The notes under the pieces were generated by a model. It did no database searches. It saw only the letters and a list, made by a program, of their open reading frames with translations, and was not told where the DNA came from. Of a DNA stretch of 54,675 bases, positions 1 through 24,873 are shown piece after piece. The position numbers were made by a program, and so were the translations under genes. This DNA comes from a virus: the IMG/VR virus record IMGVR_UViG_3300023199_000165, positions 1-54,675 of that record; one strand, written 5' to 3'. How positions within the stretch are numbered: the stretch's first letter is position 1; each line of letters opens with the position of its first letter.

Positions 1-1834
1 CAAAATCTTCAGAATCCCCTAAATCAGAATCCCCTAAATCAGAATCCCCTAAATCAGAATCCCCTAAATCGGAATCTCCTAAATCAGAATCAAGATCGTC
101 TTCTAATGATAGCATATCTTCGCCCATAGCTTCTTTAACTAGTTCACGCCTTTTTAAAGCTCGTGATTGTAAAAGTTGCTCAAGCATATCAGTTGCCTTC
201 TTATCCTTTTTCTTACTCTCTTTCTCTTCCTTCTCATCTTTATCTTCTTTCTTTTTCTTATCCTTTTTCTTATCTTCTTTTTTATCATCTTCTTCTTCTT
301 CTTTTTTCTTTCCAGCAGCTTCTAGAACTAATGAAGCCTTTTTCTGAAGAGACCTATAATCTTTAATTGCTTCTGAAGAAAGCTGTAGGAGTTGCGCAGT
401 AACTATATCACCTTTTGAAGAATTTTTACGGCCCTCAAGAGTTTCAGCAAGAACAGCAAGTTCATCAGCGCTTCTCTCAAGATCAGCAAATACTTCTACT
501 GCCTGCTCAAGAGTGTTGCCGTCATTTGCTTCCATTGCGGTAGCAGGAGCTGTTCCATCACAAGCACACTGGGCTTTTTTACATTTCTCGCAAAGCTTTT
601 CATCCTTTTCCTCTTTCTCTTCATCATCTTTATCATCTTCGTCCTTATCTTTTGCGGCCATAGGAGATGGCAATTCTCCTTCACCCTCGCCAGTTTCTTC
701 CTGCATAAGGTCTTTTAAATCACCAAGTGCTTTTTCAGCATCGGCTAGATGACTATCTAAAGAAGAAATGACAGAATCTACTGGATTTGAAGCACCTTCT
801 TCAAGTTCATCTGCTGATGGACCTTCATCTTCTGCTGGCGGAGGTGTTGGTAGAGAGTCTCCACCAGGAGCACCGCCACCCATTTCTGGCATTCCCACAT
901 CAGGCATTCCAGGCTCAGCAGTTTTAAATAAAGGCTGTCCAGTTAAAAGATAAGCGACCTTATTAAGACCTTTTGAACGAACAGCTGCTAATAGGTTTTT
1001 ACCATATTCTCTACTGTAAAGATTATTCCATCTTTTTTCCAACTCATCTTCAAAAATTTGCTCACCAGTTGCTTCAAGAATTTTTTGGTCGTTAGCAAGA
1101 ACAACCCATTTTGAAGCTTTTTTGTTGATTACTTTTTGATCAGCATCGTGGAAAGCAAGCTTAAATACAGCTTTTAGATTGGCACGAAGTAGTTTCTTTT
1201 TAAGAGCTTCTTCATTACCATAGCTTTGATAACCGGGATGCATACCATCATTACCTGGCTCCATTCCTTGACCTTCCATTTGCTTATCACCATTGGTTTT
1301 TAGGTTATTATTTGTTGGGTCAACTGGATATGGAGTTGCTGAAGGATCATTAATTCCCCCACCTCCAAGATGGTAGGCATTTTTTACAGAACTTGATGCC
1401 AATCCTAGAAGCTCTTTATACTCTTCTGGAAGTTCATCACTGGCATTTGATTCTGTAACTTTTTTAACACCATCATCAGTATCAATGTAAGTGTTTCCCT
1501 GCATATCTTTGTAGGTCTTACCACCTTCAGCCTGTGAAAGAAGTGCATGGCGACGCATTTTGCGTTCGTTTAATTCGGCACGAGAGAGCATTTTTTTTAG
1601 TTCTAACTCAGAACGACCAAAACTCTCGTATCCAGGGTGTAGACCATCATTGCCAGGTTCCATCCCCTGACCTTCCATTTGTTTATCACCCTTTGTTTTT
1701 AATTGATCATTTATTGGATCAACTGGGTATGGAGTAGTTGAAGGTTCATTTACTCCCCCGCCGCCTTGGTGGTATGCGGCCTTAAATAGTTCACGACGAG
1801 CTTTTGCTCGTTGCTGTAGCTTAGCATCAGACAT
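1..1834 (-). CDS. Nested in-frame scaffold protein from an internal start (partial)
   Basis: Within the protease frame, codon 441 is an ATG (1832-1834) preceded by AAGGAGGAGAGCATA, one of the best ribosome binding sites in the window. Translation from here would make a separate protein sharing the C-terminal part of the protease gene, as lambda Nu3 is made from within gene C. The product has a basic N-terminus, two copies of a Gly/Pro-rich module, an acidic central part, a four-Cys patch (CEKCKKAQCAC), a Lys/Glu-rich charged region and Asp-Ser-Asp-Leu-Gly repeats running off the window. Scaffold function is inferred from position and composition; no family is recognised. Confidence 0.6.
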   Translation of the reverse strand, partial: MSDAKLQQRAKARRELFKAAYHQGGGGVNEPSTTPYPVDPINDQLKTKGDKQMEGQGMEPGNDGLHPGYESFGRSELELKKMLSRAELNERKMRRHALLSQAEGGKTYKDMQGNTYIDTDDGVKKVTESNASDELPEEYKELLGLASSSVKNAYHLGGGGINDPSATPYPVDPTNNNLKTNGDKQMEGQGMEPGNDGMHPGYQSYGNEEALKKKLLRANLKAVFKLAFHDADQKVINKKASKWVVLANDQKILEATGEQIFEDELEKRWNNLYSREYGKNLLAAVRSKGLNKVAYLLTGQPLFKTAEPGMPDVGMPEMGGGAPGGDSLPTPPPAEDEGPSADELEEGASNPVDSVISSLDSHLADAEKALGDLKDLMQEETGEGEGELPSPMAAKDKDEDDKDDEEKEEKDEKLCEKCKKAQCACDGTAPATAMEANDGNTLEQAVEVFADLERSADELAVLAETLEGRKNSSKGDIVTAQLLQLSSEAIKDYRSLQKKASLVLEAAGKKKEEEEDDKKEDKKKDKKKKEDKDEKEEKESKKKDKKATDMLEQLLQSRALKRRELVKEAMGEDMLSLEDDLDSDLGDSDLGDSDLGDSDLGDSDLGDSEDF

Positions 1835-3154
1835 TATGCTCTCCTCCTTATTGATGTTAGCGTTTTTTTGAATACCATTTGCTAAATCATGGAGTGCAGT
1901 TTGCATGGTATCCAATTTATTTGTAATTTTTAAAATCTGTTCAGAAATGTCAGTAGCCAGCCTATTTCCCCTTCCCTCTGGAACCCAGTTTAGGTTTGGT
2001 CCAGCACTGTGAGGATCTTGAGCTATATCCCCCCTTCCTCCAGTCATAGCTAGATTTCCAGCAAGACCATAGGGAGGGACAACTTCCACTTCATCTTTTT
2101 TATCAGTTATTTCACTTAAAAGCTCATTATATTGCTTTTCTAAAATTTCTTTATTTTTCAGCTCGTCTTCTTTTTCAATTAAAGCACGAAGCCTGCTTAA
2201 TGTTTCAACTTCTTCACTATTAAATGCTTGTTTTTTAACAACATTTTCCAAAGAAGCCTTTAAAGTTATGATTTCATTTTCAATTCTTTCGAGTTCCCCT
2301 GGCGTTACGCAACCTGCTTTTTTAAGCTCTTCAATTCTATCACCTTTTTCTTGTGAGTATGAATTTAGGTGAGCAATTACTGTTCTTAGTTTAGCAAGTG
2401 GATCAGCACCAGTGACAACAAGGCTTAATTCAATTGGAGATAAATCAACGTTAATTTCTCCATAACAGGCTCTTTTTTGAACACAGGGACAATAATCTGC
2501 CTCAACTTGTGCAACATTTCCACATTCATAGCAGATTGACTTTCCTACGGCTGTTCCCATAGATACGCTATTAGCATAGCCAGTAGCAACTTTTCTGGCA
2601 AGATCAGGATAGTTTACTTTATCAAGAGCACATAAAGCAATTACTCTTTTAAACTTATCATCGTAATAAGTATCAACAATAATACCGCGAATGCCGTCTA
2701 CTGAGCTGCTCTGATGATCTTTACATAATGGGCGACCAATCCAATTTCTATATGCCTTTTTTAATTCTGACTCAGGAAATATATCACCATTATTGTTTTT
2801 ATATGGTTTTATATTTGAATCTGAACAATTCCATTTCCAAGAACCACTTTTATCGTCAATTTTCCATTCAGCAGTTATTGGTTTTCCAGAAGAGTCTTTT
2901 TTTATTTCACCCGTATTTTGGTCAATAAGAGCGGCGTTCGCCGAATGTAGCATTATTGCTGTAAAGTATAAAAAATCTTTTGCTTTTGGAGCAACGCGTC
3001 TTAAATTATTAGCGAACTTTACAAATCTTTCTCTAATTTCCAAATCACTGGCGGCAACAGAGCTGAGCAGAGCATCTTTAAAATCACTATTTGGGCTTGG
3101 AGGTGTATAATTATTTGAATTAATTAGTCCTGTAGCATATTTAACAATCGTCAT
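1..3154 (-). CDS. Prohead protease fused in frame to scaffold-like region (3' end outside window)
   Basis: The frame is open from the ATG at 3154 to the window edge (more than 1,050 codons); the C-terminus is missing. Residues about 60-255 look like a capsid maturation serine protease: His147 in RPLCKDH and Ser198 in NSVSMG match the His/Ser layout of S78/HK97-type prohead proteases. Cys208, 211, 222 and 224 resemble a zinc knuckle. Residues 260-350 are coiled coil, followed by a Gly/Pro-rich linker. From Met441 onward comes a scaffold-like part with a duplicated module, a Lys/Glu-rich stretch and an acidic repeat tail. GGAG precedes the start by about 10 nt. Protease before scaffold, downstream of portal, is the classical head-gene order. 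The protease family call is by motif only, and how much of the gene is made as one chain is unknown. Confidence 0.75.
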   Translation of the reverse strand, partial: MTIVKYATGLINSNNYTPPSPNSDFKDALLSSVAASDLEIRERFVKFANNLRRVAPKAKDFLYFTAIMLHSANAALIDQNTGEIKKDSSGKPITAEWKIDDKSGSWKWNCSDSNIKPYKNNNGDIFPESELKKAYRNWIGRPLCKDHQSSSVDGIRGIIVDTYYDDKFKRVIALCALDKVNYPDLARKVATGYANSVSMGTAVGKSICYECGNVAQVEADYCPCVQKRACYGEINVDLSPIELSLVVTGADPLAKLRTVIAHLNSYSQEKGDRIEELKKAGCVTPGELERIENEIITLKASLENVVKKQAFNSEEVETLSRLRALIEKEDELKNKEILEKQYNELLSEITDKKDEVEVVPPYGLAGNLAMTGGRGDIAQDPHSAGPNLNWVPEGRGNRLATDISEQILKITNKLDTMQTALHDLANGIQKNANINKEESIMSDAKLQQRAKARRELFKAAYHQGGGGVNEPSTTPYPVDPINDQLKTKGDKQMEGQGMEPGNDGLHPGYESFGRSELELKKMLSRAELNERKMRRHALLSQAEGGKTYKDMQGNTYIDTDDGVKKVTESNASDELPEEYKELLGLASSSVKNAYHLGGGGINDPSATPYPVDPTNNNLKTNGDKQMEGQGMEPGNDGMHPGYQSYGNEEALKKKLLRANLKAVFKLAFHDADQKVINKKASKWVVLANDQKILEATGEQIFEDELEKRWNNLYSREYGKNLLAAVRSKGLNKVAYLLTGQPLFKTAEPGMPDVGMPEMGGGAPGGDSLPTPPPAEDEGPSADELEEGASNPVDSVISSLDSHLADAEKALGDLKDLMQEETGEGEGELPSPMAAKDKDEDDKDDEEKEEKDEKLCEKCKKAQCACDGTAPATAMEANDGNTLEQAVEVFADLERSADELAVLAETLEGRKNSSKGDIVTAQLLQLSSEAIKDYRSLQKKASLVLEAAGKKKEEEEDDKKEDKKKDKKKKEDKDEKEEKESKKKDKKATDMLEQLLQSRALKRRELVKEAMGEDMLSLEDDLDSDLGDSDLGDSDLGDSDLGDSDLGDSEDF
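11..91 (-). repeat. 15-bp tandem repeat coding for GDSDL units
   Basis: Five direct copies of a 15-bp unit (AGAATCCCCTAAATC; the fifth copy differs at two bases) lie inside the scaffold reading frame and encode an acidic Gly-Asp-Ser-Asp-Leu repeat. The unit length is a multiple of three, so copy-number changes keep the frame. It is a coding repeat, not a CRISPR array. Confidence 0.85.
1181..1777 (-). repeat. Duplicated 66-residue module in the scaffold part
   Basis: Two copies, 1577-1777 and 1181-1378, encode near-identical segments. Each begins AYH(Q/L)GGGG(V/I)N, continues through TPYPVDP and KQMEGQGMEPGNDG, and ends in a Leu/Lys-rich helix. They are separated by about 66 unrelated residues. 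This is internal duplication within one gene. Confidence 0.8.
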
Positions 3155-3210
3155 TTAAGTAATTCTCCACTAGTTTTATTAACCATGATTTATTTTTCCA
3201 ATTATGGCTT

Positions 3211-3885
3211 TTATTTAATCTTACAAGAGTTATATTTTTTTTCTTTACATACTTTATTTTTAATTTTATCTAAAGATTTAGCATATTTGTGAACTTTCTC
3301 TCCATAAGGCTTTATAGAAAAATGATGTTCGCCATCATATTCAATAGCCAAATTCACTTCAGGACACCATATATCTAATTCTAATGTATAATTAGTTTTT
3401 GGATTTCTAATTGTTCTTCTATCATTATATTTCCAAATCAAATTATTAAAATATGTTTTTAAAACTTTATAAATATATTTTTGAGGATAAGATTTTCCTC
3501 TATCAGAATGTCTGCCCGGTTTAATTTTTTTTTATAATAGGTTTTTTTAACTTTAATAGCACCTAATTTACTACACCTTTTAGAACAATATTTAGTTTTC
3601 TGTGTTGAAGAAAAACTATTTTCACATTCAATACAAGTAAAGGAGGTGGGAGGTTTTCTTCTACACGCATTATTTATTCTATATTTATTCCATCTCCAAC
3701 AGTTTTTACAATATTTTTGATTGGGGGCTTTTGGCTTATATTTGACTTCACATCTACAACATAATTTTTTTTTTATAACCAAAGCTGCCTTTACGCTCTC
3801 TTTGATAATGTTTATTACATAATTGTTTAACTTTATATCTTACTTTGTCTTTACAACCATTATATTTACAAATAATATGGCTCAT
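3211..3885 (-). pseudogene. Frameshifted zinc-finger homing endonuclease with PD-(D/E)XK-like nuclease end
   Basis: Three pieces in alternating frames read as one protein. The N-terminal piece from ATG 3885 (MSHIICKYNGC...LCNKHYQRER) has a Cys/His zinc finger typical of phage endonucleases. The middle piece has two further Cys clusters (CRCEVK...YCKNC; CIECEN...YCSKRC). The C-terminal piece has LELDIW and IEYDGEHHF, like Vsr/DUF559-type nucleases. The joins fall at an A10 run (3765-3774) and an A9 run (3525-3533); removing one A from the first and adding one A to the second restores a continuous frame. It may be a decayed gene, an assembly indel or a slippage product. It sits between the 48-aa gene and the protease gene. 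Confidence 0.7.
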
Positions 3886-5848: not shown

Positions 5849-8800
5849 TTATCTTCCTCCTCCTCCCAGTGGTAGTGGAACAGACATAATTCCCATAGGG
5901 TTATTCCCAATTTCCGCGTGCCAAGGCTCATATGACTCCATAGTTGTCGCAAATGGCTTATCTGACGGTGTGACCGTCAAAGGAGTGCTTTTCCTTTCCT
6001 TTTTAAGTGCCTCAATGGTTGGAATATCCAGCTTTCCTGTTGGATTTAAATGTCTTTGAAGTTGCCATTTTGACAACTCAATTGCGAATTCTCTGCTATT
6101 GGGATCAAGTTTCAAAAAATCTTTATTTGCCGTTTTTATAAAAGATTTAGTGTTATTAGATAATGAGGCATTATGGATTGTAGCTTCCTCAATAGCATTA
6201 AAAGCAGAAACTATCTTATCTGAACAAAGAAGAGTTATTCCCTCTTTTAACATTTCTTTTTCGTTATTTAACAATACATTAGCAACAAACTTTAGGTTTG
6301 GCTCAGTCATAGGTTTATTTGGGAGAAATTTATCCCTTATATCACTTAAAACAGTTGATGCTTGAAGCAAAGAAGCCGTTGTTTGATCCAGCCTTGATTC
6401 AAAAGGCTTCTTAATAACATCAGAGCTTATTTTGTCTGCTAAATTAGCAATATTAACTATAGCCTGATTAAACTGTGCCTTTTCCTCTGGTAGCTTAAAT
6501 TTATAGATATTTGTTTTGTCGTTAAAAACTATATATAATTCTACTTTTCCAAAAAATTCAGCATATTCCTTGTTTTCATTAATCATTAAATGAACAGTTA
6601 ATTTGTCACCTGTAGATTTATTTCCAACTTCAGCAACATATCGGTTTTTCCAAATGTTTCCACTTAAACGTTGAAAAGATAATTTGTTTAATATATAATT
6701 AGGTATTAAACTACCCAACTCCTCTTCTGTTCCAAATGGATTTGATTTCGTATTTTCAATATCACCACTTATAAATGCATTAACATAAAGTGGAATGCTG
6801 TTAATAAGATCACTTACCGTTGCTCTATCCTCTGTTCTCAAGTGCCAAGTATTAACTGGATGACCATCTTGTTTATTATTAGATCTCCACATATCAAAAT
6901 CTTTTTTGAGCTTCTCTATGATTTCAAAAACATCTGATGAAACAGCTATATGATAAATACCACTAAAATTAGCATAACTTAAAATTACTTTAACATTGCG
7001 AATTGAGTTAGTTTCATCTTTAAAAGCCATATTAGCAACAACAAATTCTTTGGTACGGGTTTTTTCAGTTCTTATTATTGACCATTTAAAATCATTATCT
7101 TGATAAGAAAATACGCTCATTATATCCTCTATGCCTTCCGCTCTTTTTGAAAGAGAAGCATCTTTATATCCCAACTCCTCCGCTTTATCATAATAAACTA
7201 AATATTCATCTTCATATTCTTCATCTTCATATTCTTCATATTGATAATTACTTGGTAAGAAAGATTTTCTGTCCTTTGCGTTTATAGTAATAAGGCCAAG
7301 TTCTTCTGCCTGAGCCAAAAATTCTTTTCTATTTGAAATTACTCCTATCAATTCTACCTCTGGGTCTGATGGATTAAGCCATCCTTCTGTTCTTAAAGAC
7401 CCAGAATCCCCTGTATTTGAAATTCTTTTTCCAGTAATTTTGTCTACAAAAGAGCTATTATCACTTTCAGAAAAAGAGACAACAGGTCCTGAGAAAACAA
7501 GACCTAAAAATATTTTTCTAGATTGCTGAAATAAGAAGTCTTCATTTTTTGATACACATATTTCTTCATTTAAATTAGAAAATTTAGTTAAAATTTGTTT
7601 AAAATTATTTTTTACATTATATAAATCTTCATCTGTTAAACGATTAGTATTTATAATGTGTATCCAATTTCCTTCAACATTTTCGTAGTCAATAAACCTC
7701 TCTTTTATTCTAAAACTAACTTTACTTGTATTATATGAAGTATTATCAATATAAATATCATAAACATATTCATATTTATTTAAATAAGAGTTAAATTTTT
7801 CTCTTAAATTTGGATGCGTTGAGAAAATACGAGTAATTAATAGTTTTGTCATTTTAAAAGAGAATTCAACCGTTTCTTCATTGGCTAATCTTTTAATAAT
7901 ATCATCAGTGAAAATTTTTGAAAATTTATCAGTATTTATATTTGGATATATCTTATTTAAATTAAAATAGAAAAATTCTCTACTATTTTTGTTTAAAAGT
8001 TCTTGGGCTTTATTAAACCCTATATCATAATAATAATTATATAAATGATTAGAGAAAAAGTCAATGGGATAAATAGATTTCGCATATTGTTTTCCAAAAT
8101 CAGGATATTTTTCGTGTAATTTAAGTGTATTAAAGACCATATATATATCTTGATCTCGCCTATATTTATTTAAAATTGAATTTAAGGCATCTTCAGTAAA
8201 ATCTGGATGCTCGTAATCTTTGTTTTTTTGAAAAAACTCAAAAGGATGGTCTAATGCCATATACTTGGCTGTTTCTTTATCTTGAATGTAATTTTCTGAC
8301 CGTTTTGATAAAGACCCATAAACATTTTTTTGAAAAAATCCAATATAATTTAAATCTTCCCATTTATCAATGGCAAGAAAATCTTTAATACTTGCTTCTG
8401 TTGTTCCGTCATCTGTTTTTATAACAGCAAGACCGTTTATCGGAGCATTCCTGCTCATAAGAGCATTTTGTACTGCCTTTATAGAAAATGGAGTTTTATC
8501 TGGAAGATCAATGCCATATTGATTTCCCATAATACTCACTCTTGACCATACATCTAATATCTCTTTCTCTATTTTCTTTTTAATAGGGTCTGTAGTATTA
8601 TATTCAATAAAAGTAAATTCATTTTCATTCATAACTTTTGCTTGCTCAGGAGTTAAAAATTCGTTTAATTTTTTAGCAAGTTCTTGATAGTGACTAGAAC
8701 CAGAAGGAACATCTATTACCTCTCCTGTCTCTGTATTAACCCAAAAACCATCAATGTTCATAGCCGTTTTAGAGTAGAGACAAGAAGATGAAATCTTTGG

Positions 8801-10594
8801 CAACTTAGACATAAACTCTTGTTCTTGCCTTTCGGCTTCACCTTCTCCTAGATGAGGATTAGAGAGAATATCTTCTTGCGTCCTTGTTTTCCCTATATGA
8901 CCGCCTTCGTGAGCTATTGTTTCCATTATCGCACGGATAATAGCTAATTGAATATCTCTTTCTGCTCTTCCAGTCAGATGTTGTTTAACATTATTAACGA
9001 TACGATCTTTGAAAATATGAACTTCTCTGGGGTCCTTTCCTGGACCCATTTCAACGTGTCCAAGCTGTCCAGAACCTCCACCTTGATGAACTACAACTTT
9101 TGTTACATTATTAAGCAGTGCTGGATCATATGTTTTCACTCCAACAACTGCCTGTTGTACTAAATTATCTAAAGGTTCAATAACCACATTTGGACTTTGC
9201 GGAATAGGCTTTAAACCTGGAGCATTTATATTGGGGCTTGGAGCAAGGGCTCTTTTGCTTAATGGCTTTTTACCTATTTTAATATTCGCAAAATTTTCTC
9301 CTGCCATTTGGATACGAACAGTATCTGCTTTCCACTCATATTTTTTATCCTTAAAGTCTAAAAATTCAGGCTTATCTTGTGAAAATCCTACAGTCATATG
9401 TGGAACCCATCCGTATTGCGACGGCAAATCAACTAAATTACTCACTACAGTTTCCAATTCTGTCTGTAAAGCACTTAAGCCTTTCGCATTTGGGACTAAG
9501 TAGATAGGAAAGCCATCCTCGCCTGCGTGGAAAAATCCTGATCCAGCAATGCTCATTTTAAGAGGCTCGTGTTTAGAACAAACCTTTTCAACGGCTTTTT
9601 TTATAGCTTCTCTGGTAATTTTATTTAAATCTTTAGCTTCTCCAAGATACAATAAAGTTAAGTGTAGTCCATCAGTAGAAACTGACTCTTCATCAATTAA
9701 ACCTGCTTTTGTTAATCGTTTTAAAATATTATCAGGAAGCATTAACGCAACCATCGCACCCGTATGCTTTTCTTTTTTAGCTTCTGTAATAAAACTTGCC
9801 CTTTTGCTTAAAGGATAAATAGCGGACGCAAGAGTGCCTATTCTACCGTCTTTTAGGTAGTCAGGTTCAAGTGTAGGTATAAGATATTGGTTTTTAAGAG
9901 TTCCAGGCTCGTGCCCAACTTCGGCAGCAGCCAATTCAAGAGCAGATTTAAACTCTTCTTTGAGCTTCTTATCTCTCTCTTTTTCACCCTTTGGTGGAAG
10001 TTTGCCTTTACGCACTTGCTTTAATGCTTTTCGCATTTCTTCATTCGCGTGAAGACCACGAATGTCTTTTGCGGTAATTTTGAATTTTTTTAGATAGGCG
10101 TTAATATTATCAGCGTTAATTGAATAATCATCACCTTTAAATACTTTATCATTCGGCCTTTTGTCTTTTAACAACTCTTTTAAAACTTTTAAAGTTCCTT
10201 TTTCACTAACTGTTTTTTTTTGTTTTACGCCAGATTTACCAACATATTTAATTGTAGCCTTTCCGTCTCTTATAGTGAAATGTTTTTTCATCCAAGTAGT
10301 GACGCCATAATGCTTTAAATTTCGTGCGGACGCAGAATTACCTACTCGCTCATAAGTTTCATCTATGAGTGCTACAGCTAAAGCAGTGTATTTAGTTTTC
10401 AAATCGCCACTTTGTAAATCTTTTCTTATTTGAGAACGCAATTTAGATAAAGATTTAGATAAAGATTTAATTCTTTTCATCTTTTTCTTGTTTCTATTTT
10501 CTATATGTTTTTTGCTGTAAACATAAGTTATATTTCCACTTTCTTCTTTACGCTTCTCAACATAATTTTTAGCTTCACGAATAGATAAAATCAA
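5849..10594 (-). CDS. Giant multidomain polyprotein: topoisomerase IB, 2H phosphoesterase, zincin (1,581 aa)
   Basis: The start is a TTG at 10594 with AGGAGAAGGA just upstream; it overlaps the previous stop as TTGA. Domains in order: topoisomerase IB, about 60-245, with all five catalytic residues visible (Arg83 in ERVGN, Lys120 in GKSG, Arg179 in KDIRG, His228 in EVGHEPG, Tyr237 in NQYLIP). Then LSKRA at 262. Then a 2H phosphoesterase, 275-435, with HLT at 311 and HMT at 399. Then LSKRA at 445. Then a zincin-like domain with HEGGH at 562-566 and a possible third ligand in GEGEAE. Unknown domains follow, bounded by LSKRS at 762 and LSKRA at 1148. The C-terminus has a peptidoglycan-binding-like stretch (LQRHLNPTGKLD) and a Gly-rich tail. 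It lies between portal and protease. I infer a capsid-internal polyprotein. Confidence 0.85.
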   Translation of the reverse strand: MILSIREAKNYVEKRKEESGNITYVYSKKHIENRNKKKMKRIKSLSKSLSKLRSQIRKDLQSGDLKTKYTALAVALIDETYERVGNSASARNLKHYGVTTWMKKHFTIRDGKATIKYVGKSGVKQKKTVSEKGTLKVLKELLKDKRPNDKVFKGDDYSINADNINAYLKKFKITAKDIRGLHANEEMRKALKQVRKGKLPPKGEKERDKKLKEEFKSALELAAAEVGHEPGTLKNQYLIPTLEPDYLKDGRIGTLASAIYPLSKRASFITEAKKEKHTGAMVALMLPDNILKRLTKAGLIDEESVSTDGLHLTLLYLGEAKDLNKITREAIKKAVEKVCSKHEPLKMSIAGSGFFHAGEDGFPIYLVPNAKGLSALQTELETVVSNLVDLPSQYGWVPHMTVGFSQDKPEFLDFKDKKYEWKADTVRIQMAGENFANIKIGKKPLSKRALAPSPNINAPGLKPIPQSPNVVIEPLDNLVQQAVVGVKTYDPALLNNVTKVVVHQGGGSGQLGHVEMGPGKDPREVHIFKDRIVNNVKQHLTGRAERDIQLAIIRAIMETIAHEGGHIGKTRTQEDILSNPHLGEGEAERQEQEFMSKLPKISSSCLYSKTAMNIDGFWVNTETGEVIDVPSGSSHYQELAKKLNEFLTPEQAKVMNENEFTFIEYNTTDPIKKKIEKEILDVWSRVSIMGNQYGIDLPDKTPFSIKAVQNALMSRNAPINGLAVIKTDDGTTEASIKDFLAIDKWEDLNYIGFFQKNVYGSLSKRSENYIQDKETAKYMALDHPFEFFQKNKDYEHPDFTEDALNSILNKYRRDQDIYMVFNTLKLHEKYPDFGKQYAKSIYPIDFFSNHLYNYYYDIGFNKAQELLNKNSREFFYFNLNKIYPNINTDKFSKIFTDDIIKRLANEETVEFSFKMTKLLITRIFSTHPNLREKFNSYLNKYEYVYDIYIDNTSYNTSKVSFRIKERFIDYENVEGNWIHIINTNRLTDEDLYNVKNNFKQILTKFSNLNEEICVSKNEDFLFQQSRKIFLGLVFSGPVVSFSESDNSSFVDKITGKRISNTGDSGSLRTEGWLNPSDPEVELIGVISNRKEFLAQAEELGLITINAKDRKSFLPSNYQYEEYEDEEYEDEYLVYYDKAEELGYKDASLSKRAEGIEDIMSVFSYQDNDFKWSIIRTEKTRTKEFVVANMAFKDETNSIRNVKVILSYANFSGIYHIAVSSDVFEIIEKLKKDFDMWRSNNKQDGHPVNTWHLRTEDRATVSDLINSIPLYVNAFISGDIENTKSNPFGTEEELGSLIPNYILNKLSFQRLSGNIWKNRYVAEVGNKSTGDKLTVHLMINENKEYAEFFGKVELYIVFNDKTNIYKFKLPEEKAQFNQAIVNIANLADKISSDVIKKPFESRLDQTTASLLQASTVLSDIRDKFLPNKPMTEPNLKFVANVLLNNEKEMLKEGITLLCSDKIVSAFNAIEEATIHNASLSNNTKSFIKTANKDFLKLDPNSREFAIELSKWQLQRHLNPTGKLDIPTIEALKKERKSTPLTVTPSDKPFATTMESYEPWHAEIGNNPMGIMSVPLPLGGGGR
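7139..7153 (-). other. Candidate maturation cleavage site LSKRA
   Basis: Residues 1148-1152 of the 1,581-aa protein, just after an acidic Glu/Tyr/Asp-rich linker. Confidence 0.45.
8297..8311 (-). other. Candidate maturation cleavage site LSKRS
   Basis: Residues 762-766 of the 1,581-aa protein, a Ser variant of the motif between two unknown domains. Confidence 0.4.
9248..9262 (-). other. Candidate maturation cleavage site LSKRA
   Basis: Residues 445-449 of the 1,581-aa protein, between the 2H phosphoesterase and the zincin-like domain. Confidence 0.5.
9797..9811 (-). other. Candidate maturation cleavage site LSKRA
   Basis: Residues 262-266 of the 1,581-aa protein, between the topoisomerase IB and 2H phosphoesterase domains. 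Confidence 0.5.
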
Positions 10595-19897: not shown

Positions 19898-22800
19898 TTA
19901 TGGGCCTCCCGTTGGAGAGCCGGGCCCTAGCGGAGGAATATTTGAGCCGCCCTCTGGCGCACCGGCGCCTCCAAGACCACCACCACCTAACTCTCCAGAT
20001 GGAGGTGGAGCTAATTCAGGAAGGCCGCCGCCACCCATTCCTCCAAGGTCACCACCAGGTAATCCAAGACCCATATCGCCGCCAGGCATTCCGCCCATAT
20101 CAGCTCCTTGACCCTGACCGCCAGGTTTTAGCTCTCTTTTAACATCATCAACTGGTTCAGCAATTTCTTTCTCCGGATTAAGTGTTCTAAGCTCAGATAG
20201 AGACATTGTCATTAATGCTTGCTCCTCTCTCTGTCTAATAACATCGTTAATTAACTCCTGTCTCTGCTTAATTCTTTCTTCCTCATAATTTAATCCAAGG
20301 CTCTTATATAGAGTTTGTAATGAAGCCTGCTTTTGAGAAACAAGCCCAGTGATATTTCCAATATAATCCTGTAAATCATAAAGATTCATTTTATTCCACT
20401 CGACTTCAGGAATTATAAGTTTTTTTCTGCCATCATCATAAGTAAAAAAGTTGTTTAATTCACTAATTGGAGCAAAAATTTTATTTTGAAGCCAATTAGC
20501 AACCATATTTCTAAAATTAAAGTATCTTTGCCTTAGCACTTCTAAACCAATTGATGCTGAAGAATAAACAGCACTTTCTGTATCAACAACTGCTGGAGGA
20601 ACCATTAAGCCAGTATAAATATTTTTAATAATTAATTCCATATCAGAGCCAATATCTAGTACCGCTCCTTGGGCACCAACTCTTGAAATATCAACTCCAG
20701 CGTGAGTAATAAGCTTAAAATCTTTATCATATTGAGCTTCTTCAAGCATTTGTTTAAAATCTTCTAGATCTTCTTGTGTCGCTCTATATTCCCCATCAGT
20801 GTTTCCACCAAGCTTAACAACTGTAATCGGATTAACCAAACCATCAGCTTGAGCAAATTTTGCCTCTCTTAGTTTATCATAAAGCATTAAATCTTTAAAA
20901 GTGCTGACAATAACACTTGTTCCTCTTACATCATAAGGACTTGAAAGCATTTTTAGATGAGAAACATTAAAATTGTCCAACGGAATATCTTGACCAGCTC
21001 TTACGTGATATAATATCTGTTCAGGAATTTGTTTTCTTAATTGAACATCCGCTGGATTGTTGCTCATTACAAGCCTCTGTAAAACAGCATCGGGTCTTAA
21101 TGAAATCATTGGCTGTCCAGCAAGGACAGTTTTCTTTACGTGTATGTAATCGGGGTTCTGAATAATAATTTTGCTCCATTTCCCAGATTCTTCATCTAAT
21201 TCAGCATAAGGAAAACAATTATGAACAGCAATTCCTTCTACACAATAGGAATGATTATCATCTACTTCAAAATTATAAAGAGGCTCGCCAATTGGTAAAG
21301 ATTTTCTCTCAATTTTTTTAATAGGGGCTATAATATGACCGTCTTTTGAAAACTTCACCCTTGGAACATTATTGGGCTTTAATGGTCTTTTTTCTTTTTC
21401 TTCATTTAATTTATCTTGTTTTGTTTTATATAAATTAAACTTGTTAGCATAAAACAAAGGAACTTCTATAAAATATATATCATTTTTTCTATTTTTAGAA
21501 TGCTTGTTTATTGAACAAGTTATATAATTTCTCGCCAAAATATCTTTAATTTGAAAAGCCAATGTTCTTGATATAGTCGCCATACATATTCTTCCACTAT
21601 GTATCCACCCATCTCCATCAATAAAACCATTAACTATTTCCATTTGTTTATCTGCCGGCAAATTCATTATTTCACTTGAAAGCATTTTCTTATCACTGTA
21701 TTGTCCAGCAAATTTTTTTATTTTTTTAGCAAATAAAGAAGTGGCGTCTCTTTTAGATAAATTAGATCTTAAATAACCATTGTTTCCATTAAGTGATAAT
21801 CGCAAATTACAGTTTTTAAATATTGGTTTATAGTAATTCCATAAATTTTCATCTGTATTTGAAATAACAACACATTTTGGAACTGAAGTTTTGTTATAAT
21901 AAGAATTATAATCAAGACTGCCCTCCGCAGAATAAATTCCTATTAATCTACATAGGTCTTTTGAAATTGATGAAATATCTTCCTCTTCCCTATTAACCGG
22001 GATTATACAAAAATCATTAATAGATAATTCGCCAGACTTTATCCAGTCCCATTCCCATTTATCTTCATTTTCAAAAGTTGGGCGAGAATTAATAATTTTA
22101 CTTCTTTTTTCGTTTCTGTTAATATTGCCTACCTTCGAAGCATAAATTGGATGATTTGATGATAATTCAATAGGTTCATTTTGCCCTTGAATTGTTATTG
22201 ATAAATATTCCTTGTGCTTCCAATTAATTTTTCTCTCTAATACTTCTTTATATTCTCCCGTGTGAGTTAATACTAAATCTCCTACCTCAACCTCATCAGC
22301 CCTTTTAAACCCTTTGCTCAAAATTGTTAAATGATTACAGGACCTTACGCATTCGCCCATTTTCCAAAATTCTAGTGCTATTCCGCTAAGTGACTCAAAC
22401 AGATTCATTTCTTCAATCATATCCTCAAAAAAGTGTAAAACCTTTTTATCAGGGCACTTAATATTCAACTTACTAATTGGATATGTTGCGTGAAGAGTAA
22501 TGGCGTTTCTAACAATCGGATGTAAATCAAAAAAGTTGCGTAGCCAAGCATTTACTGTAATTCTATCTCTTGGCAAATTAAGATTTGCCATAGTAAATAG
22601 AGGAGAATAAATTTCTGGTGCTAGCCTATCTACACCACTAAAAGATGTAGAGCCACCGCCTCCACCTCCGCCAATAGAAGCGGCATTTTTTTGAAATGAA
22701 TCTTCAACAGCTGATTTTCTCATAAAAGATTCACTATGAGCAACAACAGGAGATAATCTACTGTTGCTATTAATTACCCTTTGATTATGTGATTGGTTCC

Positions 22801-23023
22801 ATTCCGACCTATTTAAATCTTTATTATGGTTTGTTGGCATAACAGTATGAGTTTTGTTTAAACTACTATTATCATAGTTTATACCCTCTTTTACCACTCC
22901 CCTATTAACTTGCTCAGCAAGTATTTCTTTCCTATAATTTGAAAGTTTTGATGCTATTTTAGGAGTAATTCTAATTGTTTTAGAATCTCCTTTTTGTCCA
23001 GCTCTTGATGTTCTTCGTGTCAT
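19898..23023 (-). CDS. Portal protein precursor with in-frame intein (1,041 aa; mature about 663 aa)
   Basis: The portal forms the dodecameric ring at the head vertex through which DNA is pumped. The extein has a polar N-terminal arm, a Gly-rich loop (SIGGGGGGGS), then FDLHPIVRNAI and WKMGE joined across the intein to CFPYAELDEE, the usual portal core. It continues with the membrane-free helical domain (VYSSASIGLEVLRQRYFNFRN) and a Gly/Pro/Met-rich tail. GAGG precedes ATG 23023. The gene follows the terminase, the normal order. The intein occupies residues 225-602; splicing must occur for a functional ring. Confidence 0.85.
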   Translation of the reverse strand: MTRRTSRAGQKGDSKTIRITPKIASKLSNYRKEILAEQVNRGVVKEGINYDNSSLNKTHTVMPTNHNKDLNRSEWNQSHNQRVINSNSRLSPVVAHSESFMRKSAVEDSFQKNAASIGGGGGGGSTSFSGVDRLAPEIYSPLFTMANLNLPRDRITVNAWLRNFFDLHPIVRNAITLHATYPISKLNIKCPDKKVLHFFEDMIEEMNLFESLSGIALEFWKMGECVRSCNHLTILSKGFKRADEVEVGDLVLTHTGEYKEVLERKINWKHKEYLSITIQGQNEPIELSSNHPIYASKVGNINRNEKRSKIINSRPTFENEDKWEWDWIKSGELSINDFCIIPVNREEEDISSISKDLCRLIGIYSAEGSLDYNSYYNKTSVPKCVVISNTDENLWNYYKPIFKNCNLRLSLNGNNGYLRSNLSKRDATSLFAKKIKKFAGQYSDKKMLSSEIMNLPADKQMEIVNGFIDGDGWIHSGRICMATISRTLAFQIKDILARNYITCSINKHSKNRKNDIYFIEVPLFYANKFNLYKTKQDKLNEEKEKRPLKPNNVPRVKFSKDGHIIAPIKKIERKSLPIGEPLYNFEVDDNHSYCVEGIAVHNCFPYAELDEESGKWSKIIIQNPDYIHVKKTVLAGQPMISLRPDAVLQRLVMSNNPADVQLRKQIPEQILYHVRAGQDIPLDNFNVSHLKMLSSPYDVRGTSVIVSTFKDLMLYDKLREAKFAQADGLVNPITVVKLGGNTDGEYRATQEDLEDFKQMLEEAQYDKDFKLITHAGVDISRVGAQGAVLDIGSDMELIIKNIYTGLMVPPAVVDTESAVYSSASIGLEVLRQRYFNFRNMVANWLQNKIFAPISELNNFFTYDDGRKKLIIPEVEWNKMNLYDLQDYIGNITGLVSQKQASLQTLYKSLGLNYEEERIKQRQELINDVIRQREEQALMTMSLSELRTLNPEKEIAEPVDDVKRELKPGGQGQGADMGGMPGGDMGLGLPGGDLGGMGGGGLPELAPPPSGELGGGGLGGAGAPEGGSNIPPLGPGSPTGGP
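21218..22351 (-). mobile_element. Intein with LAGLIDADG homing endonuclease in the portal
   Basis: The likely first residue is Cys225 (CVRSCNHLTILSKGFKRA), followed by the block-A pattern and GDLVL; a second Cys at 229 is an alternative. Block B is SSNHPIYA. Two dodecapeptides mark the endonuclease: LIGIYSAEGSL (about 360-370) and VNGFIDGDGWI (about 464-474). The C-terminal splice block reads YNFEVDDNHSYCVEGIAVHN, ending in Asn602, with Cys603 as the +1 nucleophile. All splice residues are present, so it should be active. Length is about 378 residues. Confidence 0.9.
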
Positions 23024-23034
23024 TAATACCTCTT

Positions 23035-24873
23035 CTATCTTATTTTGGGTGCGTAGGCTAATATAGGCCGTGCCCTCATACTTTTATTAATATCTGGATT
23101 TACTTTAAACCCGTGAGTTTTATCGAATTTATAAGCCAAATAGGCATAAATTAAAGCCATTAATCCATCGTTGGGTCCGCTACCTTTAATATAACTTTGG
23201 TGAGGCTGCCCGTTACGCATTTTTATTTTACTTTCCATAGAACAACAGTGGTTAATTAACCAAGCAACTCTCTCATAACTGCCCCAAGGAAATCTAATAT
23301 GACCTTTTCTCAATAGGTCAAAAACTTCACCAATTATTTTATCTTTATCTACAACTATTTCCAATTCGTCTTTATTATATTTAACTCCGCCAGCAACCAT
23401 TCCAGAGTTTCTGGCAGTTTTATATTTATCACCATATATTTTTTTCAACTCTAAAGAAATGTCTTCGGCAAAACCAATATCGCCAACTGCTGATTTTATT
23501 CCATATGCTCTAAATCTATTATCAATAAATGCTTTTTTAGAATCAATATCAAGTTTTTTAAGTTTTTCAGCAAACTCTATATTGAACCTACCATCGTGTT
23601 CCACAGATAAAACAACTCCGCAAGAATAAGATTGCCCCTTTTTAGCTCCATCTATGTCGGGTTTGCCACCCCAGTCCATTCCAAGATATGTAGTTTTACC
23701 TTCAAGCCTTTTTAAAACTAGTCGGTCAGGATCTCTACACATATTGTAAATTACATCAAAAGTAATAGGGGTGCTCTCGCCAGAGTGAAATTCCCCTAAA
23801 ACTTCGTTTTGCCAAGCAACTTCTGTTTTAGTTGGATTGTTTTCTGGCTTTTGTTTCATAATTACTTCTTTTGAAAAAAAAGGAATAATTAATTGGTTAA
23901 AGTGAAACCCAACAAAACTTGAATCTTCTTTTCCAGGGGAGACAATCCACTTGCCTCTTTCAATTGCCTCTACCTTATCCTGTTCCTCTCCACAATCTGG
24001 ACATTTAACTATGTTTTCATATAACCAAATTTCTTTTTCCCAAGCATCTGATTCTGGAGTGTAAAGTAAAAAGTAATTATTACAATTATAACAGCCAAGA
24101 TAATATCTTCTCTGATCTGAACTCTCCCACATTTCGTGAAAAAATGAACCTTTTTGCTTTGGTGTTCCAAAATATACCTGAACTCCTTGACGAATCGGTC
24201 CGTGCTTTGCCATCGCTAAACATTCAGTAACAACCGGAATGGCTCCTTTTACCATATCCTGAACCTCATCGCCAAAGAATACATCAAAAGTTCTACCACG
24301 AACTCTTGTTCCATCAATACCTACAGACTCACACCATAAAACATTTCCTTGCTTAAACTGCTTATATTGTAGTGAATCAGAGGCATCTCTTCCACCTTCT
24401 TTTCGAGCATTAATATATGGCTTTTCTTTGCCTGGTTGCCTTTTATCTTCAAAATCAGGATACATTATTGAAGAATTTATCATTGTTTCCAACTTATCTT
24501 TTGAAAAAGAATGCATAAGTTCAAGTTGCGGAAACGCGTGCATAACTCTAACTGGAGAAGTCCCATTTTTTCCATAAAGTCCGCTTGCTACCAAATATAG
24601 CTCAATAACAGATGCCATAGTTGTCGCTCCAACCTGACGCCCTTTTACAATAACAACAGGTTTCCCAGTTTGAGACATTGCGTCTGTAACAATATGTCTA
24701 TAAATATCGGCAATAAACTTCCAGCCGTTGCCAGTAAGCTTCATTGGCTTTCCATCAAGAGTTAGATATGTTTCAGCAAATGATACGGGATCGACTTTCA
24801 TCAACTCTTTTTTCAAAGAGTCGAAGCTGTTTTCTAACGACCACATATCACCTTTATTTATCATCTTAATCAT
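23035..24873 (-). CDS. terL: Terminase large subunit (612 aa)
   Basis: ATP-driven packaging motor and headful or site-specific nuclease. Walker A is KGRQVGATT (77-85), Walker B VFFGDEVQD (198-206), and the coupling motif YFGTP (234-238). A zinc site (Cys261/264, Cys291/294) is inserted as in GpA-like terminases. The RNase H-fold nuclease shows Asp400 in GMDWGG, Asp465 in VGDIGFAED and Asp569 in NDGLMAL. It ends in TAG 11 nt before the portal start. Codon 10 is an alternative ATG with a GGTG-like site. The small subunit is not obvious nearby. Confidence 0.92.
   Translation of the reverse strand: MIKMINKGDMWSLENSFDSLKKELMKVDPVSFAETYLTLDGKPMKLTGNGWKFIADIYRHIVTDAMSQTGKPVVIVKGRQVGATTMASVIELYLVASGLYGKNGTSPVRVMHAFPQLELMHSFSKDKLETMINSSIMYPDFEDKRQPGKEKPYINARKEGGRDASDSLQYKQFKQGNVLWCESVGIDGTRVRGRTFDVFFGDEVQDMVKGAIPVVTECLAMAKHGPIRQGVQVYFGTPKQKGSFFHEMWESSDQRRYYLGCYNCNNYFLLYTPESDAWEKEIWLYENIVKCPDCGEEQDKVEAIERGKWIVSPGKEDSSFVGFHFNQLIIPFFSKEVIMKQKPENNPTKTEVAWQNEVLGEFHSGESTPITFDVIYNMCRDPDRLVLKRLEGKTTYLGMDWGGKPDIDGAKKGQSYSCGVVLSVEHDGRFNIEFAEKLKKLDIDSKKAFIDNRFRAYGIKSAVGDIGFAEDISLELKKIYGDKYKTARNSGMVAGGVKYNKDELEIVVDKDKIIGEVFDLLRKGHIRFPWGSYERVAWLINHCCSMESKIKMRNGQPHQSYIKGSGPNDGLMALIYAYLAYKFDKTHGFKVNPDINKSMRARPILAYAPKIR

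Follow-up and report, generated by a model that had tools for sequence, protein, structure and literature searches.

A conserved internal start signal in a giant-phage gene that joins a prohead protease to a probable scaffold protein

Can a single open frame of a phage provide a prohead protease and, from an internal start, a free copy of the protein to which that protease is fused? The question is raised by one end of a 54,675-base virus fragment (hereafter the window, i.e. the whole stretch of DNA analysed), in which the minus strand carries a single frame running from an ATG at 3154 as far as the edge of the window, that is, 1051 codons with zero stops. The first-pass annotation had placed a second start, the ATG at 1834, in frame with the first and 440 codons from it, with no stop between the two regions. 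Both statements hold ((3154-1834)/3 = 440), a detail left unsaid being that the gene lies on the minus strand. The internal site had also been located inside the protease coding sequence; this is correct in that it lies within the frame of the N-terminal part (N-part), but it falls outside the catalytic domain, which ends near residue 262, and follows a variable linker of about 175 codons that ends in a predicted helix. Because the fragment is cut at base 1, no common stop is seen in the window, and the shared C-terminus is visible in relatives only. The features of the gene are the following:

3165-3168, minus strand: GGAG preceding the protease start codon, a weaker site by duplex energy (-6.4 kcal/mol)
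1835-3154, minus strand: N-part of 440 codons with the prohead (head maturation) protease module and the linker, from PHROG, phage G and fold matches
2369-3034, minus strand: protease domain, residues about 41-262, with residues invariant in 27 sequences
1841-1969, minus strand: predicted long helix, residues 396-438, closing the linker just ahead of the internal start (AlphaFold2, moderate-to-low confidence there)
1841-1849, minus strand: internal Shine-Dalgarno (SD) sequence AAGGAGGAG, from duplex energy, synonymous constraint and relatives
1832-1834, minus strand: internal ATG, where the free C-terminal part (C-part) is predicted to start, from frame, SD and relatives
1-1834, minus strand: C-part, probable scaffold/core protein, Lys/Glu/Asp-rich; the window edge cuts it after 611 aa of the 700-950 aa expected
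1616-1774, minus strand: module of about 53 aa, copy 1 (YHQGGGGVNEP...DKQMEGQGMEPGNDGLHPGYESFG), from repeat comparison
1217-1375, minus strand: module of about 53 aa, copy 2, from repeat comparison

On the minus strand the letters before the internal ATG read AATAAGGAGGAGAGCATA-ATG, and AAGGAGGAGAG spans 1849-1839. With respect to the ends of the gene, a short tandem repeat encoding DSDLG units is found where the C-part is cut off (6-95, minus strand), and broken endonuclease-like reading frames occur immediately ahead of the protease gene (3211-3782, minus strand). Homing-endonuclease-like ORFs are also present in two relatives (L026 and L027), between downstream head genes.

The internal SD had been described as excellent, and its calculated duplex with the anti-SD bears this out: at -12.9 kcal/mol it is the strongest among the window gene starts scored (the next being -12.3), and it is stronger than any found at 249 further in-frame ATGs of window genes, the best of which reached -10.5 kcal/mol. 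The corresponding value for the protease start is only -6.4 kcal/mol. SD sequences are common at window gene starts (median -7.3 kcal/mol, compared to -2.7 kcal/mol for internal ATGs), and it thus appears that the phage initiates translation by SD pairing. A search for an internal sigma-70 promoter before 1834 gave 10 promoter-like sites when 12.7 were expected from shuffles; a 9/12 promoter match at 1860-1833 overlaps the SD and the start, and was therefore not counted as a promoter.

Relatives were collected in four scans of viral contigs, the contigs being up to 480 kb in size, and none were found among bacterial genome contigs searched with close-relative patterns. Out of 189 loci with a hit, 186 contained both modules, in one open frame in every case (186/186), and the remaining three were cut by an end. 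The protease and the C-part were always fused in the 100 distinct relatives. In these loci the linker from the protease domain to the internal ATG came in 54 different lengths (91-222 codons), none with a stop, so that the fusion as such is kept. Comparing the internal site among related phages had been put forward as a check on the proposed start, and this comparison came out in its favour: an SD core with an in-frame ATG was present at the junction in 100 of 100 distinct relatives (99 plus one, L063, counted after re-anchoring), and in 30 of 30 after thinning to <45% identity. By comparison, an SD core preceded 447 of 3248 other in-frame ATGs (14%). That is, the internal start is conserved more than expected by chance. 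The ATG precedes the first repeat module by 5-21 codons in 99 of the 100.

Conservation of this kind could also have arisen at the protein level. In that case the fusion would be the only translation product, the SD-like letters would simply encode a conserved Lys-Glu-Glu, and free C-part would be released by proteolysis, as at the herpesvirus R site. Lys and Glu residues are indeed conserved at the junction, and per-sequence codon-recoding tests, too weak alone, gave p 0.0085 for the window and 0.1-0.7 for the others. A whole-gene synonymous-codon scan, seeking codons whose similarity exceeds what amino acids and codon usage account for, points in the opposite direction. In the clade of the window (clade A, 10 sequences), the top 12 of 1418 scan windows all begin within -9 to +11 codons of the internal ATG, and the two highest sit on the internal SD (z 9.8 and 9.5). 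The codons AAG GAG at the SD are invariant in all 10 sequences; in the window gene, AAG makes up 27% of Lys codons and GAG 26% of Glu codons. In a wider set, the Glu-Glu pair at codons -3/-2 is encoded by GAGGAA in 52 cases, by GAGGAG in two and GAA-first in none, as opposed to 885 GAA-first pairs out of 1117 elsewhere in the same genes, although these junction codon statistics are inflated by an anchoring step that favoured SD-core ATGs among a few near the junction, a bias from which the clade A scan is free. Furthermore, the start region is more accessible than other in-frame ATGs (median unpaired 0.62 vs 0.44, p 4e-26), and across clades the SD and the ATG are retained at differing codon positions and with differing residues. 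Synonymous constraint on the SD, the opposite GAG/GAA preference of two adjacent Glu codons, the accessible start and the shifting position all argue against a purely protein-level origin of the motif, which we regard as quite unlikely.

The signal from the scan varied with the clade. In one other large clade (30 sequences) the junction only ranked 20-32 of 1276 scan windows, i.e. in the top 2.5% but not highest, and no peak was seen at the junction in clade B, because the alignment is too gappy there. Strong synonymous constraint in the 30-sequence clade also falls on codons -91 to -85 and -18 to -17 and around codon +147, counted from the internal start.

SD-like sequences within genes are known to affect elongation, and the conserved stretch might thus act without any start, either as a ribosome pause that lets the protease fold before the C-part is made, or as a frameshift signal. 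However, the stretch is always followed at initiation spacing by an ATG, which pausing does not require, and in the window stops in the two remaining frames come 1 and 27 codons past the internal ATG. This explanation appears very improbable. Internal initiation at 1834 is, in contrast, strongly supported at the sequence level, and since a strong internal start signal is kept in 100 distinct relatives, the free scaffold part is very likely made in addition to the fusion.

The N-part matches head maturation protease families (phrog_18299, E 1.5e-12; phrog_2774, E 9.8e-18) and is 32% identical to gp19 of Bacillus phage G (E 5e-21). The best Foldseek match of its AlphaFold2 model was 5jbl, the gp21 protease of T4 (prob 0.82, E 0.023). 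Comparison of the model by VIA gave Z 8.4 to both 1vzv and 5jbl_A (112-126 residues, rmsd 2.7-2.9), followed further down the list by many herpesvirus proteases, the T4 gp21/herpesvirus matches spanning Z 8.2-8.4. Judging from the model, the N-part has the T4 gp21/herpesvirus-type (assemblin/gp21) protease fold; lambda gpC did not occur among the matches listed. His147 (2714-2716) and Ser198, the latter within the motif VSMG (2561-2563), are unchanged in 27 sequences, those of phage G and actinophages among them, and are probably the catalytic residues. Near the active-site Ser lies a zinc-knuckle-like insert, C208-x2-C211-x10-C222 (2488-2533, minus strand), that is likewise invariant, including in phage G and actinophages. 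The protease of some relatives is interrupted by inteins at the conserved motif NNN^CFPPGT: a full intein with a LAGLIDADG endonuclease in one case (L023:6300-7423) and a mini-intein in two others (L021/L022:6276-6733).

The C-part measures 706-949 aa where complete in relatives, and Asp, Glu and Lys together make up 27% of its residues. Its structural model, of low overall confidence, shows long helices and a single small alpha/beta domain amid much disorder, and matched no solved fold, no known scaffold fold and no HK97-fold; a direct sequence search of solved structures returned coiled coils only. A module of about 53 aa (YxQGGGGVNEP or YFQGTEEP ... DKQMxG) occurs in exactly two copies in nearly all relatives examined (L007 to L203), copy 1 lying 7-22 residues past the internal start, and is possibly a capsid-binding or cleavage element. 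Near the C-terminus, 54 aa of the relatives' C-part align with gp21 of phage G (HHalign E 1.3e-6, for those residues only). As gp21 is separate from gp19 in phage G, a stand-alone protein can carry the C-part's end. Two wider homologies were considered and set aside: in Gram-negative jumbo phages (Saruman, Motura, Lu11, Erwinia), the proteins next in line after the protease look similar by eye, but HHalign gave this no support, and it gave none to homology with the C-parts of actinophages.

Upstream on the same minus strand are the portal gene (19898-23023) and the large terminase gene (23035-24873), placing the gene in a packaging/head module. The window itself stops short of the major capsid protein (MCP) region; in 11 of 12 relatives an MCP homologue has a gene of its own, which lies about 8-11 kb downstream in those cases where the distance was checked. 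This bears on whether the C-part could itself be the MCP fused to the protease. A weak match to PHROG 4523 ('major head and protease protein') and the protease-scaffold-MCP fusions proposed for phage MD8 (PMC8508860) would go along with such a fusion, but the separate downstream homologue and the lack of an HK97-fold match rule it out in relatives, and actinophages have annotated MCPs two genes on, so that an MCP identity is hardly credible. The head module of the window also encodes a 1581-aa protein (5849-10594, minus strand) in which a topoisomerase IB core of eukaryotic type (PF01028, E 2e-26) precedes a 2'-5' RNA ligase/LigT domain (PF13563); its ligase part is also matched by a PHROG that carries the label 'head maturation protease'.

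Position, composition, the helical/disordered prediction, the presence of a separate capsid gene and the separate counterpart in phage G make a scaffold a good candidate identity for the C-part. Alternatively, the C-part made by internal initiation could be another internal head component, ejected or core-associated, that is packaged together with the protease. Giant phages do pack many internal head proteins that are cut by the prohead protease (PMC5694885, PMC7411985), and the C-part lacks a match to known scaffolds. On the other hand, it is placed between portal/protease and MCP with no other obvious scaffold candidate adjoining it, it is highly charged and helical/disordered, and it is covalently linked to the protease. 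We therefore consider a non-scaffold head component rather unlikely, although it deserves more weight than the alternatives discussed above.

The interpretation that we judge likely is that two co-terminal products are made, a protease-scaffold fusion and a free scaffold, with the C-part most likely serving as a transient prohead scaffold or core. The first-pass annotation had predicted two such products, and the sequence, the modelled fold and the 100 distinct relatives support this. Weak initiation at 3154 would yield the prohead protease fused to the long, charged, mostly helical/disordered C-part, while strong independent initiation at 1834, from the SD in the linker, would yield the C-part alone with the same C-terminus. 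The free C-part would then build a transient prohead scaffold or core, the fused copies would co-assemble with it and so carry the protease into the core, and at maturation the protease would degrade both the core and itself, as happens in lambda, T4 and herpesviruses. The scaffold function, the ratio of fusion to free protein and the targeting to the prohead are what we infer from this arrangement. In the giant phage SPN3US, a C-terminal extension has been proposed to target the protease to the prohead (PMC7411985), which fits with a fused C-part bringing the protease inside. The predicted excess of free scaffold stands in part: in the clade of the window the internal site exceeds that of the protease in strength by 3-6.5 kcal/mol, and more scaffold than fusion is plausible and well motivated for this clade only, whereas in most other relatives the internal SD is modest and not the stronger one (median -6.0 kcal/mol, compared to -6.8 kcal/mol for the protease's own).

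The gene works like lambda C/Nu3 and herpesvirus (HSV) UL26/UL26.5, yet belongs to a distinct family. In lambda, the scaffold has an internal in-frame start within C/Nu3 (Shaw & Murialdo 1980, as cited in PMC8508860). The likeness to lambda noted in the first-pass annotation applies to the layout, with protease and scaffold in one frame, an internal in-frame scaffold start and the capsid protein downstream. It does not extend to the protease fold, in that lambda gpC is a ClpP/SppA-like serine protease and the protease here is modelled as T4 gp21/herpesvirus type; the C-part is also far larger, with a duplicated N-terminal module. Mu and Pseudomonas Mu-like phages likewise have an in-frame scaffold start within the protease gene, preceded by an SD (ACGAGGA in PaMx73; PMC4378225), but these are different phages with a much smaller scaffold, and no sequence match was seen here. 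The protease-scaffold layout of HSV UL26/UL26.5 (PMC12474303) is similar as well. Given the herpesvirus/T4-type fold of the protease, the resemblance to UL26/UL26.5 would be one of fold as well as layout. UL26.5 is expressed from its own transcript, whereas here the free form would be translated from the fusion's own mRNA through a bacterial ribosome-binding site, as in lambda and Mu.

Closer counterparts are found in other phages. In Bacillus phage G (JN638751), gp19 is homologous to the N-part and gp21 shares the end of the C-part, in the same order before the MCP (gp27); unlike here, gp19 and gp21 are separate genes with gp20 between them, and there is no fusion. In actinophages (Stormageddon gp13, C1 cluster gp92, Finch gp17, Phrappuccino gp53 and Phabba gp102), a homologous protease is fused to a long C-part ahead of an MCP gene two genes on, but these C-parts are not detectably homologous to those of the window's family by HHalign, and only a weak SD (-4.6 to -5.7 kcal/mol) is found at the corresponding Met.

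No description of a nested start in the gene family of the window was found in the literature searched, most subscription journals being outside its scope. The head scaffold of giant phages has been hard to identify: it was still unconfirmed in 2017 (PMC5694885), and gp22 of SPN3US has been proposed as a candidate (PMC7411985). A sequence-defined candidate, covalently tied to the protease, is now available across at least 100 distinct phages, and the proposed mechanism, internal initiation, is testable by one synonymous mutation. The nested protease-scaffold design of lambda, Mu and herpesviruses would thereby also occur with a herpesvirus-type protease, in phage genomes of up to about 480 kb. 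We lean towards the broader view that a widespread group of giant phages obtains its transient scaffold from this nested gene, which would combine a herpesvirus-type protease with a herpesvirus-like layout, and that the ratio of fusion to free scaffold may be set by an internal SD whose strength varies from clade to clade.
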